A DNA stretch of 64,000 nt from Voacanga thouarsii (taxonomy: Eukaryota > Streptophyta > Magnoliopsida > Gentianales > Apocynaceae). Within the stretch, counting starts at the first letter, position 1; the number at the start of each line of letters is the position of its first letter. Under the pieces are notes generated by a model. The model was not told where the DNA came from, did no database searches, and worked only from the letters and a program-made list of their open reading frames with translations. The position numbers and the translations under genes were made by a program. The stretch is from positions 496,001 to 560,000 of the forward strand of contig JANUWF010001694.1 of assembly GCA_026120185.1 (NCBI GenBank), written 5' to 3'. Of the stretch, positions 12,346 to 60,343 are shown piece after piece.

Positions 12346-13439
12346 AGAATGAGCACATGCTTAAAGGGGACAGTGGGAGTAAGATTGAACTTAGTGAAGT
12401 TAATGAAGATCAAACAAATAAGGATCAACCATGTAACCCCACTTCTGTTGAGAAAATAGATGAACTTTCTAATATACAAGAACCTCGTATATCTAGTAGG
12501 ATACGTGTGGCACCTGAGAGATATGGATTTCTTATTAGTGACCACAATGACATATTGCTCATAGATGAAGATGAGGCTACTGCCTACAAGGATATTCTAA
12601 ATAGTTCAGAATCTAGCAAATGCCTAGAGGCCTTGAAGTCAGAGATGGATTCCATGTATGACAACTAAGTATAGACTTTGGTTGATCCACCTAAAGGAAT
12701 TAAGCCTATTGGGTGTAAGTGGGTTTTCAAGAAGAAAACGGACATGGATGGTAACTTAGTTACCCATAAGGCATGACTAGTGGTGAAGGGTTATCATCAA
12801 TAACATGGTTTTGACTATGATGAAACCTTGTCGCTAGTAGCCATGTTGAAATCCATCAGGATACTCCCAGCCATTGCTACTCATCATGATTATGAGATTT
12901 GGCAAATGGATATGAAAATAGCTTTCCAAAATGGAAATCAGACTGAGGAAGTGTATACGACACAACTTAAGGGTTTCACATCCAAGGATGGCACAAAGTT
13001 GTGTAAGATGCAAAGGTCTATTTATGGACTTAAGCAAGATTCTAGGAGTTAGAATATCCATTTTGATGAAATAATCAAAGAGTTTGGTTTCATTCAAAAC
13101 ATGAATAAGCCTTGTGTATACGAGAAGGTTAGTGGGAGTGTAATCGTTTTCTTACTGCTTTATGTAGATGACATATTGCTAATAGGAAACGATATACTTG
13201 TCCTGCAAATGGTTAAAATTTGGTTGTCCAAACAATTCTCCATGAAAGATCTTGAAGAAGCAACCTATATTCTTGGAATAAGGATCTGTAAGGATAGATC
13301 CAGAAGGTTGCTAAGTCTTTCGCTGTCTACATACATAGATAAAGTGCTAAAGAGGTTTAGCATTGATCAATCCAAAAAGGGATTCTTACCTATATTACAT
13401 GGTGTAAGACTTTCAAAGTCGATGTCTCCCAAGACATAA
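12315..13439 (+). pseudogene. pol: Copia B integrase tail and reverse transcriptase
   Basis: After the IN-RT linker (12315-12668, acidic, with the SSRIRVAPERYGF motif seen in copia pols) RT runs from about 12690 to 13440. Readable motifs are the QMDMKIAF block (about 12903-12926), SIYGLKQ (about 13018-13038) and the catalytic YVDD at 13161-13172. Stops at 12666, 12775, 12801 and 13050 and others break the frame, so no functional enzyme is made. Confidence 0.9.
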
Positions 13440-13454
13440 GTTGAAAGGGATCAC

Positions 13455-14128
13455 ATGAGTAAGATTCCATATGCCTCGACAGTTGAATCTATCATGTACG
13501 CTATAATATGTACTAGGCCCGATATATCTTGTGCTCTTATTTTGACAAGTAGATACCAATCTGACCCTTGTGAGGGTCATTGGGCGGCTGTAAAGAACAT
13601 TCTTAAATACTTACGAATGACTAAGGATATGTTCTTTGTATATGGAGAAGGTGATTTGAAAATAAACGGGTATACTGATGGCAGTTATTAATCTGACAAA
13701 GATGATTTCAAATCACAATCAGGCTACTTATTTATGTTGTGTGGAGGGGCAATAAGTTGGAAAAGTTCCAAACAAAACACTATTGCCGACTCTACGATAG
13801 AAGCTGAGTATATAGCTACTTCTGAAACAGCTAAGGAGGCTGTTTGGATCAAGAAGTTCATGATGGAACTGGGTATGGTTCCTAGTGCTGTTGGTCCAAT
13901 AACTTTGTATTGTGACAACAATGGAGTTATTGCACAAGCAAAAGAGCCACGGTCTCATCAACGATCCAAACACGTACTGCAACGCTATCATTTGATCTGG
14001 GAGATCGTAGATAGGAATGATGTAATGATAGAGAAAGTTTTCACTGATAAGAACATAGCTGACCCGCTTACAAAAGTACTATCCCCAAAGAAACTTGATT
14101 GTCATGTTAAGTCATTTGGTATTAGATA
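13455..14128 (+). pseudogene. pol: Copia B RNase H, interrupted by solo LTR C2
   Basis: Covers the RT/RNase H connection (ARPDI-like TRPDISC near 13511) and the RNase H region, with GYTDGSY (near 13669-13689, followed by TAA), SSKQNTIADSTIEAEY (about 13764-13811) and LYCDNNG (13904-13924). The last codons read KSFGIRY. There the 4.3 kb LTR C2 is inserted at 14129. The remaining codons (YMNDWI and a TAA at 18474-18476) lie on the far side, so the insertion hit pol seven codons before its natural stop. Confidence 0.9.
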
Positions 14129-15679
14129 TGTAACACCTTATTACCTAGGCCCAACAGGGCTGGGGATGTCGCCTCGTCCAAAGGACAAGGGGTTTTTATA
14201 ACTCGGTCACACAAATAAAAATAAAATAATACATTAAAATTTAAACTTATTATAATCCAAAAATTCAAGACAAATCCAAAACAAAAATTGTTCACTCTCA
14301 ACTCTCAAAGCATTACATAAAATAGATAACAGAATATCTTCCAAGCAGGCAACAACTAGATACTCATCCCCACAGCAGGATCGACCTGAAATCATGGCAA
14401 AAAGGGTGATGAAATAAAAATCTCAGTAAGTCCGTGGGTGCTTTGGGTGTTCAGTGAAAACAGTTCACGAATGCATGGTGTAAGAACTTGATAAGAAAAA
14501 TACTAGCAAGCAATAAACAATATTCAAAATCAATAGTGGCGTTTTGGCTTTTCAAATCATACATGAACAACAAAATCAACCACTCAAAAGGGCGGCGATG
14601 GGTTACCACACGTTGGGCCCCATAACCATACAACGGTCAAAATGCCACTTTTGTGCAGACTAACAAAAAAGGTAGGTGATCGGCCTACCAGTTAAGATTC
14701 TCCTCTTTATCCACACCCAAATAAAATTGTTGTCCACTCTGGCAACACACAGTCCACATGACTGAAACCTGCTAGCTCGGACCGGCATGACTAAATAGTA
14801 CTGACGTTTCTCTAAGTTGAGTTCATCTTCTGGAGGTGGCCTCCTGCCAGAAGACTCACTCTTGCTCTTCAAAACTAGTACTACTAGCCTATCCTTATTG
14901 AGTACTCAACGTAGTTCATCCCACTTGGGAGAAAATTGATGAAACATAGCTTTACTTGAAAATGGCAATCAAGGTTTCCAAAGTTTGTGTCAAAATTGGT
15001 TTTAGAAAGAGTTTAGTGTTTGAGAAAATCTGGTTGTTGGTTTTCAAATAATTTATATGACTGAAATAAGAAAGGGAATAGTCCTCAATTGCCTTTACAA
15101 AAATGAGTGTTCACACACTTCACATTTGGCTTGCCATAGCGACATTTTTACATCAAATAAGTTTTATGTAGGAGCTTACCTAATCCTTTACTCGAGATAG
15201 AATAAAGATCTCCAAAACCTTACCTAACCCTGCCTGGGGTAAATATAAGATATAATTAAACTCAAGCCAAAATTTGCTTTCACAAATAATCCTAGTTCAA
15301 CTTACCACAATCATGACCTTAGTGTCCCAAGCTTTAAGGCTAAATAATAATTAAAGGGTTTATAAAATAAATATAGCTTGATATTAAAATAACTAGGGTT
15401 TGTGAAATAGTTACTAATAAGTTGTAGGTTTAAATCTTGTTATAAATAAATTAGGATTTAGTTGATAAAGGATCTTAGGTCCTAGGTGATATTATTTAAA
15501 ATAATGATTTATAATAACTAATGGTTAGAAAATAATTGGTAAATAAATTTAGTTGTAAGTAAATTTTAATACATTTGATTAAAAGATAATAAATAAATTT
15601 TATTATTATTTATGAACATAAGACTTACAAAATTAATATTTTCCCTATTATGATTATTTATATAAAAGGCTTTATTCGA

Positions 15680-15733
<54 letters not shown>
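15680..15733. repeat. (ATT)n microsatellite
   Basis: About 18 uninterrupted ATT units inside solo LTR C2. The corresponding place in other C-family LTRs (near 50770 in G) has only two or three units, so the expansion arose after this copy inserted or in its recent lineage. Confidence 0.95.
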
Positions 15734-16510
15734 CTATATATTTTATTTCTTTAATAAACGTTATCATTTATTTGACTAAAATATCATTATTTTATATAAT
15801 AGTCCAATCCACATTTTCCTAGGGTTTTTGAAATCACTAGAAGAAATTATAGCATTAATCATTTTATTGATGAAATAAAATTGGCTAACTCAATTAGCTT
15901 AGGGACAATAAGGTCATGATCATAATTCCTATTGTTAACCATAATCATGAACATACACTCTACACCAATCAACAAAATATCCAATCATGAATCAAGGCAT
16001 AAATCCAAATCTACCAAGACATGATCCAAACTCCATTAAACATAATCATATTCATGGCCTTAACAAGAATACATGAACATAAAACCCTATTCACCAAAGG
16101 TGACATAATCTCTAGCATGCTTGATCATTCATGCTACTCACAACATGAAGGCATGCAACAAACCCTAAAAATGTCATATATTCAACCAAGATAAATCATC
16201 TCATGCATCAACCCCATCTCCATCATACAAACACATTCATTCTCAGGCTTCAATCCCAACTCCATCACAAAACACATAATCAATCTCCAAATATATTCCA
16301 TCCTCATCCAACTACATCCAAGAGACATGAATCTAGAATTTAAAAAGGAGTTTGAAGAAGCTTACTTGAATGATGACTACCTTGAGGACGTTTCAAGGGA
16401 ACCCTCTCACTAGGAAGGCTTGATCCATCCAAGGAGAAGAAGAAAAATGGCCATGGTGGGAGTAACTATTCGGCCGAGAGAGAAAGAGAAAGAAAGAGAA
16501 AGTCTATTAG

Positions 16511-16518
<8 letters not shown>

Positions 16519-16552
<34 letters not shown>
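16519..16552. repeat. (TG)n microsatellite with TA flanks
   Basis: About 17 TG units bounded by TATATATA on both sides, next to a GA-rich run. It sits where other C-family LTRs carry a CT/GA run. Confidence 0.9.
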
Positions 16553-16565
<13 letters not shown>

Positions 16566-18145
16566 TCATTAAGAGTTGAAGATGAATAAAGTTGGAAATG
16601 ATCGTTCATGCTTACCTTGAAGGTGTTCTCGAGCCTTCAAGAAAATTCTAGTTTTTTATCAAAAAGTGAGACTTTGATTTCAGCGTTTGATGTTAAAAAT
16701 TACAAAAATGGATTCACGAGAATGAGTAGGTATAATCTGGAGTTTTTGGAGAAGATTGAAGTGGTTTTGAGTGCCCTTAGGCGTGAGAATGGTAGTAGGT
16801 GTTCTTGGAGGTTTGGAGAGAATGGAGAGAATGGATGAAGCTGGCTGAAATTTTGTTGAGAAAGAGTGGCCGACTGGTTTGGAGGTTTTTGGTAATTGGA
16901 TTTTCAGATTTGGGAGGAAAAGGAAAGCCGGTTGTTTGAAATTCAAAAAGAATAATTTAGGGAATTTTTTGTGGTAGCAAATATGGTAAGAAGATCTTTG
17001 TTGTTGGAGGTCTTTTGGAAGCTTCAATAGCCGACTGAATTGCTGGAATTTCTACTGAGATGAATGTTGTTTGAATGAGCTTAAGGGTGGCAGAAATATG
17101 GTGTACAATGATGAAGGAATTTTCTAGTTGTTTGAGGCTTACTCCATGGAAGGTTGCTGGAATATTTTGCTAGAATTTTGGACTCCAATTAATGGATTGA
17201 TTGTAGTAATTGATGGAGAGATTTTAGGAGCAGCCATGGAGCTCCTTTCATGCAGAACAATGGAGAAGATGATGAATCTTAGTTCATGGCTGACAAAGGT
17301 GAGCTTGTACAAAAAAATGGGATATGTTTCGGGCAAGGGAGAAGAAGGAACAAAGCTGGAAATTCTGATCAACATTTCGCAAGCTTGCTAGAAATTTCTG
17401 GGCAGATTTTTCTGCCATGATTCATCCGATATGCTGCAGGTTCAAAGGGATATTAGGAGGTCTTTTAAGGCTGGTTTCCAGCCTTCTTTATAGAGGAAAA
17501 ACAAGGTTGAATTTCTGGTTGAAAAGCTGGAAGAAACAGCTTGGTTTTTGGCTCACCAAGCTACGAAAACTGTCCAGGAATTTTCCTGGTTTGCACAGCT
17601 TTTGTGCAGCTTAGTTTTGGCTGGAATTTTCAGTCTTCAGGCTGTATTTATTGGTCATTTTTTTGGTAGTATTTGGGAGCGAAATATGGCTGAAATTTTC
17701 GACAATTGGACTGATCAAGAAGCTGGAAAAATCTCCAGACTACTACATGAAGAAAATAAACACACATAGGATGGAGTTTGAAGGTTCAACCATAGAGATT
17801 AATTCCCTTGGGAACCTTCCATAACTCCTCCCCATTTTTGACCAACAAGATACCTCACATAGACATTTTCGAAACCTTAATATCACAGAACTTTGCTGGA
17901 ATTTTTTGGAAATAAGATTGGCTTAGATGAATTAAACAACCTAATTGATTAAGAAGTAGGGAAAGATAGAGATCAAGAAGGGTATGAATCCCTTAGAAAT
18001 TTTTGTAGGGCACAAGAGTGGAATTAGGATATTCCTTTCATGTCTCCCCCTAGGACAACTCTCGTACCCTTCCCTAAGGCATGCACGGGCCGAAATATAG
18101 CCTACCTAACAAAAATAAAATTTAATCATGCTAAAACTCAAATGA

Positions 18146-18202
18146 TGGAATTTGAACTCAAGACCTCAAGTATATATTCCAAATCTCTAACCACTAAACC
18201 AC
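18146..18202 (-). repeat. tRNA-like module in LTR C2
   Basis: On the minus strand an A-box-like TGGTTTAGTGG (18201-18191) is followed about 30 bases on by a B-box-like GAGTTCAAATTCC (18159-18147). It lies 251 bp inside the LTR 5' end, the same offset as in the other C-family LTRs. Confidence 0.65.
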
Positions 18203-18477
18203 AATAACTCTTGTTCTTATTTTCTTTCCTAAATATTTTTGCTATTTAACCTTCAAGGTATCTCCCTATTTCCACCTCAAGCAAAATTACCATTTTACTC
18301 TTCTTACTCACTAAGCACAATTAAGCTATCTAGACTACAAATCACATATCCAAAGCATATAAAATCATACAAAAATACATTTATGCATGCAGAAAAATAT
18401 GATATGCATCCCGACCCCTTACTCTGAGGTTGGCTTTAGTTGGGGTTTCACAAGATACATGAATGATTGGATCTAAT

Positions 18478-24424: not shown

Positions 24425-26785
24425 ATGGCCGAAACTCTCTCTCTTGGCCAGATGGCTTCTTCTTCCATGGCCATGCTTCCTCCATCTTCCTTGGACGATT
24501 TTAGGCATCTAAGAGTTGAGATCCATTCTAAAATCCTTCAAGGTATTCATCAACCAAGAAAAAGTCCCTTCAATCTTTCTTTTAAAATCTAGATTTATGT
24601 CTCTAGGATGATGATGATAGAAGGTGGATTGTAATAGGATTTGAGTATGTATTGTTGAGATTGAAGCATGAATATATGTATGATTGTGAAGGAGATGGGA
24701 TTTATGCATGGAAGGATTATCTTGGTTGATTGTATGATGATTTGAGGTTTCATGCATGTTACCATGTTTTAGGTAATATTTGGGGTGAAGTATACTAAAG
24801 ATTATGTCACCTTTGGTGAATAGGATTTATATTCATGTTGGATTATTGAAGCCATGATCATATTAATGCTAGTAGAGGTTAGATACTGTCTTGATAAATT
24901 TAGATCTATGATTGTATGCATGATTTGGATGATTGGATGAATTGAAGGATTGTATATGTTCATGATTGTGAATAGCCATGGAAATATGATAATGACCAAG
25001 TTATCCCGAAGCTAAATTTTATTTCTTCAAATAAAATATTTAATATGATGATTTTTGGCTAGTAATTTCGAAAAAACCCTAGGAAGGGTAGAATTAGATT
25101 ATTATATATATTAAGGATATTTTAGTCAAATAAATAATAGCTCTTACTAAAAAAATATATATAGATATTATATAAAGTAATGAAACAACTAAAGACTTTT
25201 ATGGAAATAATCATAATTAGTAAAATACTTATTATAATAAAATTAATTATTATATTTTAATCAAAGCTTATTAAAATTTATTTATTAATTTTCAAGCAAG
25301 ACTTATCGAAATTCATTTTCAACTAACTTTGGTTATCAATTATTTTCTAACAACTAAATTATTAATAAATCATTATTTTTCCTAAAAACCACCTAAGACT
25401 CTTCATCAAATAAACTCTAAATTTTCTTAGCAATATTTAAACCTTTAACTTATTAGTACTTATTTCCCGAAACAGTGATTATTTTAAAGATCAAATTACC
25501 CTTAGCTTATAAACCTATTTACTTGTTGTTTGGCCTTAAAGCTTGAGACACTAGGATCATGATTGTAGTGAGTGGATTTAATTTAAAATTGAGGAAGTGG
25601 ATTGTGGCTTGAGATTGATTGTGGTTTGTTTTTGACATGCGGGGTTAGGTCAGCTGTTGGAGACCTATTGTTGTGAGTGAGGATCAGGTAAGCTCCTGCA
25701 TAAAACCTGATTGATGAAAAGTGTTAAATTATGGCAAGCCAAATGTAGAGTGCATGGACACTCATTTTTGTAAAGGCAATTGAGGGTTGTCTCCTGTTTT
25801 ATTTCTGATAAATGATTCATTTGAAAATTTCTAGGTATATTTACTCAAACTCAAAACTCTTTCTAAAACTATTTTTGACAAAGATTTTGGAAACCCTTAA
25901 TTGCCATGTTCAAGTGGAACTGTGTTTTGTTCATTTTTCCCAAGTGGGATACGTGACGTTGAGTACTTAATAAGGGTGGACTGCTAGAGCTAGTCTTTGA
26001 AGGGTTAGGGTAAGTCTCTCAGTAGGTGGCCACCTCTGAAGGGTGTGTCCTTCCCGGATGAGATGTCAGTCCAGTAGGTCGTGCCAGTCCGAGCTAGCAG
26101 TTTGTTTTATTTTAGTCAAGTGACTGTGTTTTGCCGGAATGGACACCCAGTTGTTGTTGGGTAAAGAAAAGGAAGAGTATCTTGCCCGGTAGGCCGATCA
26201 CTTACTTGTTGTCAGTTTTCACAAAGTGTCGCCATTCTAACCGGTTATGGGGCCCAACGTGTGGTAACCCATAATCATTTATTTTGAGTGGTTGATTTTA
26301 TTGATTATGTATGCTTGGAAAAGCCAAAACACCACTCTTGCTTTTGACTAATGTTTATTACTTGCCAGCAATTATTTTGTAAAGATTTCATACTTTGCAT
26401 CCACGAACTAATTTCACTGAACACCCAAAGCACACACGGACTTACTTAGATTTTTGTCTCATCACAGTTTTACCATGATTTCAGGTCGATCCTGCAATGG
26501 GGATGAGTAGCTAGATTATGCCTGCTTTGGAATATTTTCTGATGATTTTTTTTGTGCAATGTTTTGGGGAGATGAGAGTGAATAAATTTTTATTACGGAT
26601 TTGTTTTTGGTATTTTGGGATTTATTCTTGGATTGATATTTATTTTGGGTTGTAATAAATTTTAAGTTCAAGTATCATTTATATTTCGCTATTTTATCTG
26701 TGTGACCTAGTTATAAAGACCCCTTGTCCTTTGGACGGGGCGACATCCCCGACCCTGGCAGGCCTAGGTAGCGGGGTGTTACAAG

Positions 26786-26797: not shown

Positions 26798-26881
26798 CTA
26801 AGTTTAGGCAAATAATGATTGCATGCATGTTATTTATTTAAGTTCAAATCTTTATCTAACCTATCTTATTGATGCTGTAGG

Positions 26882-27346
26882 ATGGTTAGGATACTTAGGA
26901 CCGCGCGAAAAGGGCAGCAGTGGCACCCGCCTATCCCTATATACCCGGAGGACCTTCTAGTTCCCCAGCCTGCCCCTCAACCAGTTATCCCTATGGAGGA
27001 TAGCAGTGATGATGAGGTCCAGATCATTGAGCCACCCCCAATTCTGGTGATAGACATAAGCTCTGACAGTGAGGATGAGGTGATGATAGTGGAGCCTGAA
27101 CCCCACCCTTCTATTCACGAGATGGAGTTAGCAGTAGATAGTGATGACTCGGGGGAGATAGACTATGAGTCTCCACCTAGACCTTCTTTCCTCCCTTCTT
27201 CCAGCCGAGTTGAGCCCGGGGAGAGTTCTAGGTGCCCTGGAAAGGAGCCAGTGGAAGGATTTGCAAGCGGGGTTGGGGTAGATTTCTCCAAGAACTCTGG
27301 GGGATGGTTGTATGAGGCTGATGATGAGGGTTCTGATGAGGATTAG
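26882..27346 (+). CDS. Small acidic upstream protein of C1, SIM-like motifs
   Basis: Intact 154-residue ORF between PBS and gag. The N-terminus is basic (MVRILRTARKGQQWHPP), the rest Pro-rich and strongly acidic. SUMO-interacting-motif-like segments: VQII (46-49) preceded by EDSSDDE, LVIDIS (55-60) followed by SDSEDE, and VMIV (67-70) in acidic context. Element G carries a homologue at 59867-60343 (minus), with shared blocks KGQQWHPP, IYPEDL, EDSSDDEV, GEIDYESPPR and GESSR-PGKEP-EGFASGVG-DF-KNSGG. No zinc finger, membrane segment or enzyme motif is seen. I do not recognise a named family. Regulatory binding to SUMOylated chromatin proteins is an inference only. The sequence TCTAACC...GCTGTAG just before the ATG resembles a 3' splice site. 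Confidence 0.75.
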   Translation: MVRILRTARKGQQWHPPIPIYPEDLLVPQPAPQPVIPMEDSSDDEVQIIEPPPILVIDISSDSEDEVMIVEPEPHPSIHEMELAVDSDDSGEIDYESPPRPSFLPSSSRVEPGESSRCPGKEPVEGFASGVGVDFSKNSGGWLYEADDEGSDED

Positions 27347-27596
27347 AGGACTAGGAGTTCTTTTGATTTGGATGTTATTTGTTTATTATTTTTCGAGAAC
27401 TTTTATGTCAATGATTTTTAATTCTGCTTTCTCTCAAGATTTCAAATCTATGCAAGTCCATTTTTGAAAGAGAATTTATTCCTTAGCTAAAATTACATCC
27501 GCTTTCCATTTACATCTATTTAATAGTGCATGCAAGTACAACTAAAATGATTTAAACCTTACATGCATACACTTATCATTTGGGGTGTGGTTTAGA
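27347..27596 (+). other. Spacer between acidic ORF and gag
   Basis: 250 bp, AT-rich, non-coding. Its end (ATGATTTAA ... ATCATTTGGG) is conserved in G near 59600-59665. It ends GTGGTTTAGA before the gag ATG in C1, which could be a second 3' splice site, but G reads ATGGTTTAAA there, so this is weaker than the upstream one. Confidence 0.5.
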
Positions 27597-28700
27597 ATGG
27601 CACCAAAGCGCCGTGCAGCCTCAATAGTTGGAAGAGTTCCGGAAGCCGATCAAGTGGCACCAGAAGTGGAAACAGCCCAGGTGCAGGCACCCAACCGGGG
27701 TGAAAGGAATAGTCAGAATATGTGATCGAGGACTGAAGTTCCAGTTGATATGACCATGGGCTAAGCGTTCAGCAATATGGCCAAGATTTTGCAGTCAATG
27801 ACCGAGCGACGGAACCCTCGGGGTGAGGACAAGGCCTTAGAGAGGTTCTTGAAGTTTCAGCCCCCCGTCTTCCTGGGTGAAGCAGAACAAGATTAGAAGG
27901 TAGAGTAGTGGGCTGAGCAGTTGGAGGACATATTCGCGACGCTCCAGTACACCGAGGAGCGGATGGTTAAGTTTGCAACTTTCCAATTGAGAGGACTAGC
28001 TCGAGTATGGTGGCAACGGGTCCAAGACGACTGGGAGATGGACGAGCAGGAATGGACATGGTCCAACTTCGTTGAAGCCTTCAGGGCTAAAAACATCCCA
28101 CAATGGATTGTGCAGAAGCGAGAGGACGAATTCCAGAATCTGAGGCAGGGAAGCATGTCAGTAGCCCGGTTCACTCAATTGTCCAAATACTACAAGCGAT
28201 TGGTGGACACCGAACAGAACAGGACGAGGCAGTTCGTTAAGGGGCTGAGATCGGTATTGCGGAGAGCATTGGCACCTGCTCTACGGACAACCTATTCGGG
28301 GGCTGTAGACATAGCTACGCGAACGAAAAATGAGGATCGCAGCAGGATGGCGGCAAAACCCTTCCAGCTGCCGAGACAGCCGCAGGGTCACTTTCTGAGA
28401 CCGCAACCTCACAAGCGCCCCGCCAATCACCAATGGCAGAACCAGGGGAAGCAAGCCTGGACAACATCAGGTGGACCTGCCCCGAATCTCCCATCATGTA
28501 GGCAGTGTGGAAAGAAAGGCCACACCGAGAGGAATTGTTGGTCCAAGGGTAGAGAAAGAAAGTGCTATCACTGTGGTGACCTGAACCACCTGAGGAGCGC
28601 CTGTCCCAAATTGCACCGCGTCGGGCAAGAAAACCCAGCTCAGAACTTGGGGCCCTACCAAGCCAACCCCACGGGAGTATCCGGGAGTGGAGCATCGAAG
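27597..28700 (+). pseudogene. gag: C1 Gag with two CCHC zinc knuckles
   Basis: Starts MAPKRR at 27597, chosen because G's gag begins with the same MAPKR at 59594. In-frame stops lie at 27723 (TGA), 27762 (TAA), 27894 and 27906 (TAG); after 27909 the frame is open to 29594. The Gag core shows the gypsy retrotrans_gag pattern (WWQRVQDDW near 28010, then [13 protein letters not shown]). The nucleocapsid has two CX2CX4HX4C knuckles: [14 protein letters not shown] (from 28497) and [14 protein letters not shown] (from 28562). Gag packages the RNA. Compared with G, this copy lacks a few residues near 28165 and has extra ones near 28275. Confidence 0.9.
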
Positions 28701-59866: not shown

Positions 59867-60343
59867 CTAGCCCTCATCAGAATCTTCAAAGTCTGCCTCG
59901 AACAACTATCCCCCAGAATTCTTAGTGAAATCTATCCCCACCCCACTTGCAAACCCCTCCATTGGCTCTTTCCCGGGTCGCCTAGAACTCTCCCCGGTCT
60001 CAACCAGATTGGGTGGATGTATGAAAGAAGATCTGGGTGGAGATTCATAATCAATCTCCCCTGGGTCATCACTATCAGCTGACAAATCAATTACGGAACT
60101 AGGAGGGTGGGGAACATATTCCATATCAATCTCCCCACATTCACTATCGGAACTCAAGTCTATTATAGGTATTGGGGATGGCTTATTGATCGGGACCTCA
60201 TCATCACTGCTATCTTCCAAGGGAATAACTGGCTGTAGTGCAGGCTGATGTGCAGGCTGAAGCTCTGATAGGTCTTCTGGGTATATAGAGATAGGAGGAT
60301 GCCATTGTTGCCCCTTCCTCATGGCTTTAAGCACTCTGACCAT
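59867..60343 (-). pseudogene. Small acidic upstream ORF of G, one premature stop
   Basis: Homologue of the C1 acidic ORF in the same place between PBS and gag; 158 codons to the TAG at 59869-59867. An internal TAG falls just after KNSGG (residue 145), where C1 has Trp, and the downstream acidic tail is still recognisable. SIM-like segments are clearer than in C1: IIDLSSDSE (60-68) and VIDLSADSDD (84-93). The basic N-terminus MVRVLKAMRKGQQWHPP and the C-terminal PGKEP-EGFASGVG block are shared. The CTAACCTCTCTTATTTATGCTATTAG-type sequence before the ATG again resembles a branch point and 3' splice site. Confidence 0.75.

Follow-up and report, generated by a model that had tools for sequence, protein, structure and literature searches.

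The open reading frame between the 5′ LTR and gag of two retrotransposons of Voacanga thouarsii, here called ORF0, is a genuine accessory gene whose frame is selected as a protein. Its distant homologues share a near-invariant module that resembles SUMO-interacting motifs (SIMs). That the disordered, acidic product works through this SUMO-docking-like module is a reading to which we give a little less than an even chance. The two elements, C1 and G, lie in the window, by which we mean the whole stretch of 64,000 nucleotides analysed.

Pfam matches in pieces of C1 or G (Retrotrans_gag, RVP_2, RVT_1, Integrase_H2C2 and SH3_Tf2-1, with rve below the cut-off) follow the Ty3/gypsy order gag-protease-RT-integrase. 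After the integrase of C1, a stop-interrupted stretch resembling a chromodomain was recognised by eye; there was no Pfam chromodomain match for two C1 pieces, nor for the G frame. Both elements are likely Tekay (Del) chromoviruses. Counted from the first base of the C1 primer-binding site, the ATG of ORF0 comes 96 nt later; the ORF0 stop is separated by 251 nt from the gag ATG (27598). The gag start of C1 is broken, this ATG being in a different frame from the capsid, and the RT-integrase part is broken too. The sequence-only reading had described an intact 154-codon ORF ahead of gag in C1, and this was found (Table 1); its further statement that no other ORF of C1 was free of stops was wrong, as the frame from capsid to protease is also open. 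The homologue that it had placed in G was located there and is 67% identical, with an in-frame TAG where C1 has Trp. An antisense ORF of 126 codons lies inside the C1 gag (28315-28695, minus strand). Elsewhere in the window, a related LTR (14129-18452, minus strand) directly abuts plus-strand ORFs that appear copia-like by eye (13101-14201), and no homologous ORF0 was found there.

Table 1. Features of elements C1 and G, with positions in the window; copy counts refer to the 98-copy set described in the text
Feature	Position	Strand	Remarks
5′ LTR of C1	22430-26784	+	LTRs of 4.3 kb
Putative 3′ splice site directly 5′ of ORF0 ATG	26856-26881	+	CTAAC ... TAG-G; function putative
Primer-binding site of C1	26786-26796	+	TGGTATCAGAG; presumably initiator tRNA-Met
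ORF0 of C1	26882-27346	+	ATG to TAG, 154 codons plus stop
Core 0, residues 35-41	26984-27004	+	SIMa match VIPMEDS; aliphatic pattern in 89/98
Core 1, residues 43-49	27008-27028	+	SIMr match DDEVQII; aliphatic pattern in 64/98
Core 2, residues 56-62	27047-27067	+	SIMa match VIDISSD; aliphatic pattern in 92/98
SIMr match, residues 64-70	27071-27091	+	EDEVMIV; varies between copies
Core 3	27122-27148	+	MELAVDSDD in C1; 95/98; other copies mostly [VMI]DL[AST].DSDD
Gag capsid - zinc knuckle - protease frame of C1	27963-29594	+	open, 543 codons
3′ LTR of C1	32173-36451	+	92-94% identity with 5′ LTR, in two pieces
ORF0 of G	59867-60343	-	158 codons, one in-frame TAG
Core VIDLS of G ORF0	60080-60094	-	
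Core IIDLSSD of G ORF0	60146-60166	-	

The host genome of 1.35 Gb holds thousands of candidate ORF0 copies (first-look counts of 7797 and 7131, with 150 scored in each). We fetched 90 ORF0-bearing loci, C1 and G among them: 60 of C1 type, made up of the 20 highest-ranked ones and 40 more that were mostly picked as stop-free, and 30 of G type, which were best matches with no selection on stops. Together with eight copies from the primer-binding-site sample described below, and with the frameshifted L111 excluded, these made up a set of 98 copies, in which the count of 64 intact copies is, through the picking of C1-type loci, not a population estimate. Among the G-type best matches, 14 of 30 were intact, and of 50 in-frame ORF0 stops, 28 were TAG replacing a Gln or Trp codon, which is what C-to-T decay would produce.

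Selection was measured with a codon model that allows separate omega values for internal and terminal branches, the latter serving as a built-in control since they mostly record decay after insertion. Along internal branches ORF0 is under purifying selection: omega was 0.221 there against 0.711 on terminal branches in the 98 copies (LRT 82.5), 0.293 against 0.689 in the 60 C1-type copies (LRT 14.1) and 0.224 against 0.525 in the 30 G-type copies (LRT 15.1); the 64 intact copies alone gave 0.259 and 0.679. An internal value of 0.233 was obtained from transversions only, which sidesteps C-to-T decay, and the wrong frames of ORF0 gave internal omega of 1.8-2.4. Gag capsid values for the two window types were 0.383 internal and 0.720 terminal, and 0.341 and 0.784; gag was measured on the capsid, and the internal omega of 1.43 obtained from the ATG at 27598 was set aside because the C1 frame changes before 27963. 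The spacer between ORF0 and gag showed no difference between internal and terminal omega in any of three frames in both types. One C1-type spacer frame had an omega of 0.61 internally and 0.64 terminally, so that about 0.6 can be a neutral level in this model, and ORF0 lies well below it. The possibility that ORF0 is the N-terminal part of gag was rejected on the grounds of this spacer. The accessory protein proposed in the sequence-only reading agrees with an internal-branch omega far below 1 and with the fetched loci, most of which continue from ORF0 into gag.

The leader of these elements has splice-like features. Before the ORF0 ATG, AG was found in 85 of 90 loci and an upstream CTRAY in 83 of 90; the gag ATG (27594-27600) sits after AGA, with AGAATGG in 67 of 90 loci. 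Such contexts hint at alternative splicing as a possible route to ORF0 and to gag. Two candidate splice donors in the LTR were rejected: GTAAGT at 26010 was not conserved, and CAG-GTAAGC near 25687 was moderately conserved, not clearly above its neighbours, in a comparison that included L002, L004 and L007 in the wrong orientation. A conserved TATAAA (26712-26717) precedes the end of the C1 LTR by about 70 nt, and with a transcript start just 3′ of it ORF0 would be the 5′-proximal cistron.

The hydrophobic and acidic segments quoted for C1 and G in the sequence-only reading are present in the sequence. Matches to the SIMa, SIMb and SIMr patterns, as given in the available text of PMC3395311, were counted against shuffled sequences. 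The ORF0 of C1 has four matches (shuffle mean 0.19, with 0 of 2000 shuffles reaching four), and that of G has two (P 0.006), plus two cores of the form [VIL][VIL]D[VILM][ST]. Across 14 window-type copies tested, the SIM patterns exceeded shuffles (P<0.05) in nine and the latter core in 13. The SIM-like pattern claimed earlier stands above chance in C1 and G, but not in five of the 14 copies (L104, L108, L110, L070 and L089); in L106, one counted SIMr match spans a stop. The cores had been expected to persist in family members, and cores 2 and 3 did so in nearly all copies (Table 1). Core 2 is followed directly by three D/S/E residues in 60 of 98 copies, and the divergent L108 has lost about 35 C-terminal residues and retains three cores. 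Aliphatic retention over the 98 copies was 0.951 in the cores versus 0.924 at other aliphatic positions, a near equality by which the window family alone does not single out the cores. Internal omega was low, at 0.00, in the acidic stretch that follows core 3, as it was in IDYESPPRPSF (0.02), core 2 (0.09) and the N-terminus (0.11), but not in core 1 (0.61) or core 3 (0.59); segments other than cores, namely the N-terminus, DSDDSGE and IDYESPPRPSF, are equally tight. The ORF0 protein is acidic, and AlphaFold2 gave no fold for two sequences (mean pLDDT 58.6, pTM 0.12). Pfam had no match for the ORF0 of C1 or G, and no solved-structure match was found for the protein.

When 5.8 billion proteins were searched with a single ORF0 sequence, nothing was returned; profile searches returned 7, then 34 distant homologues. 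Each comes from a single JGI metagenome contig, 0.9-2.4 kb long, and we infer these homologues to be plant DNA lying in retrotransposons. Several have in common an N-terminus resembling MVRMYxTARK...WHPPIPI. The near-invariant module, acidic-V-[QE]-I-[IL]-E-P-P-P-I-P-V-[VIL]-D-L-V-[ST]-acidic, was present in 30 of 34, a share that is an upper bound for relatives at large because word-based retrieval favours module-bearing matches. The other four have an insertion (P0002), a changed form (P0034), a truncation (P0028) or no module (P0025). Eight of the 30 possess the module twice. In the window family, the segment VIPMEDNSDDEV occurs in two or three repeats in L068 and L115, so an acidic SIM-like segment expands inside the host genome too.

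In the 38 module instances, each of 16 positions carries 2.5-3.5 bits and most flanking positions 0.5-1.6. Positions that the pattern leaves free are as conserved as those that it fixes (of 38: I 32, P 32, P 34, P 33, I 33, P 36, V 33 and S/T 32). In 30 of 38 modules, the residues after the forward core match [ST]xx[DE], a CK2-type site. Strict SIM patterns matched 35 times in the 34 homologues together, versus a shuffle mean of 7.1 (maximum 21) and a local-shuffle mean of 11.5 (maximum 24), and 11 of the 34 had no strict match. Of the two halves of the module, the reverse one agrees with SIMr, while neither SIMa nor SIMb is matched by the forward one, V-V-D-L-V-[ST]. Core 1 of C1 corresponds to the first half and core 2 to the second. 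Homologue P0004 had 43 matches in the host genome, all in residues 1-171 of 244, that is, the N-terminus and module region; an IMG/VR scan with it confirmed 0 of 87 stretches, and ten of the 34 homologues, compared with Pfam, gave nothing close to the cut-off. Within a retrieval that leans towards module-bearing matches, no part of the distant homologues was seen to be more conserved than the module. The SIM reading of ORF0 gains from this SIM-like module, near-invariant and sometimes in tandem, more than from the window family.

It should be noted that not all ORF0s of the host genome are of this kind. From the listed part of 2,536 genome matches to the primer-binding-site pattern, we sampled 20 sites with TTACAAG. 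Of 18 readable ones, nine have a window-type ORF0 and nine belong to another acidic class, as assigned by eye from translations; no ORF0 was seen in L105 and the stretch of L101 was too short. Members of the second class (L099, L100, L102, L103, L107, L109, L112, L113 and L117) start with M-V-[RKN]-R...DWP and are very acidic, without SIM cores except VVDLS in L107, and they have the leader and acceptor-like context in common with the window-type ORF0s. The ORF0s with SIM cores therefore form a single branch within a broader population of acidic ORF0s, and the SIM interpretation, which is plausible, would hold for one element class.

In the mechanism that we propose, the module would be the working part of ORF0, with acidic-V-Q-I-I/L as a SIM of reverse type, PPPIP as the hinge, and V-V/I-D-L as the hydrophobic forward core, behind which Ser/Thr and acidic residues stand. 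Some relatives have the module in two copies, and more cores are present in the window family. That the module binds SUMO or SUMO chains we regard as evenly balanced, and CK2-type phosphorylation might strengthen the binding. Through such binding, SUMOylated silencing factors or chromatin would become docking points for the protein, which would most probably act as a competitor or adaptor and help element expression or integration to escape SUMO-dependent repression. This docking and escape step is doubtful, and is made weaker by the report that the SIMs through which MOM1 and PIAL2 bind SUMO are unnecessary for silencing (PMC6084981, available text). The broader idea that a large plant LTR retrotransposon lineage encodes its own reader of SUMO or SUMO chains, a double-headed module competing with or hijacking SUMO-dependent silencing, is tentative and on the unlikely side. 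Confidence in SUMO binding and in such a reader is held down by the forward half, which misses the strict patterns in the homologues.

The sharpest rival to SUMO docking is that the P-x-[VI]-D-L cores are HP1-type PxVxL motifs, the ligand motif of chromoshadow domains, which would tether the element to a chromoshadow protein (e.g. plant LHP1), the acidic flanks being secondary. Tethering of this kind suits the chromatin habit expected of chromoviruses, and a relaxed PxVxL is found at core 2 in 76 and core 3 in 82 of 98 copies, and in 33 of 38 distant modules. Of the 98 copies, 61 have the exact P-x-V-x-L at core 3 but only one at core 2; among the 38 distant modules, 22 have it. As PxVxL leaves unexplained the near-fixed Asp (87 and 95 of 98 copies; 33 of 38 modules), the Ser/Thr-acidic tail and the V-[QE]-I-L half, we consider this explanation improbable. 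A generic acidic disordered protein, such as an acidic activation domain or histone-binding decoy, whose cores act without specific SUMO contact, is also a serious rival, though to our mind rather an unlikely one. It would account for the strong acidity of ORF0, the lack of a fold in AlphaFold2 and the existence of an acidic ORF0 class without SIM cores in the same genome. However, acidic activation domains usually tolerate scrambling, whereas the order V[QE]I[IL]E-PPPIP-V[VIL]DLV-[ST] is fixed across very divergent homologues, which speaks for a specific docking site.

Two further explanations concern the leader and the ORF itself. The conserved acceptor-like context ahead of ORF0 would be in line with a Rev-like or leader-RNA factor that governs export or splicing of the genomic RNA, and a nuclear-export protein has been reported for the LTR element Cer1 of C. 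elegans; as no conserved splice donor was established and ORF0 has neither an RNA-binding feature nor a Pfam match, we find this very unlikely. A chance ORF, open merely through its short length, would explain why many copies have stops, including over half of the G-type best matches, but more than half of the in-frame stops follow a decay pattern, and the frame-specific selection seen in ORF0 and absent from the spacer rules it out; we give it practically no credence.

If the preferred reading is correct and the module binds SUMO, a plant retrotransposon group that ranks among the commonest would be linked to the SUMO system, and there would be a handle on how Tekay-type elements live with heterochromatin. 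Descriptions of their extra 5′ ORFs go back years, yet no function is known for them, and the module now offers a concrete candidate ligand.

The extra ORF itself is known: the papers cited below are quoted from their available text, in which 5′ extra ORFs of Tekay-type elements (PMC3485330, PMC11728184) and extra ORFs between LTR and gag in rice Retrosat2, RIRE3 and RIRE8 (PMC3485330) were described, and reviews treat extra retrotransposon ORFs in general (PMC7264820, PMC6317226). ORF0 has the same position and strand, between the 5′ LTR and gag, and is found in many copies. What appears to be new is a conserved SIM-like module in a Tekay-type 5′ ORF: 'SUMO' has no occurrence in PMC3485330, PMC11728184 or the 2025 host-factor review PMC12786077, and a search of the open-access literature yielded no description of a SIM in any extra ORF of a plant retrotransposon, though an earlier mention is possible.

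By description, ORF0 is similar to that of the rice elements, which are Ty3/gypsy elements whose LTRs measure roughly 3 kb or longer and which have a same-strand ORF between LTR and gag and, as here, an ORF0 far more divergent than pol; theirs differ in having been assigned enzyme-like functions via homology modelling (PMC3485330). The 5′aORF of sunflower Tekay group 2, also likened by description, is mostly disordered and conserved in 500 of 523 elements, but has 402 residues, a nuclear localisation signal and 15.9% proline (PMC11728184). MOM1 and PIAL2 are plant nuclear proteins with a short SIM of V-V-x-L-S type, in their case shown by yeast two-hybrid, and differ in being host silencing factors (PMC6084981). 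In RNF4, SIMs of several types stand in a row and SUMO chains are read by avidity (PMC3901395). Proteins of this type resemble that of ORF0 in their forward and reverse SIMs arranged in a row in an unstructured stretch; RNF4, however, belongs to the host, is a ubiquitin ligase and has had its SUMO binding measured, whereas ORF0 has no RING and its SIMs are predicted from sequence. The ORF0 protein looks like an RNF4-like reader of SUMO chains without the enzyme.
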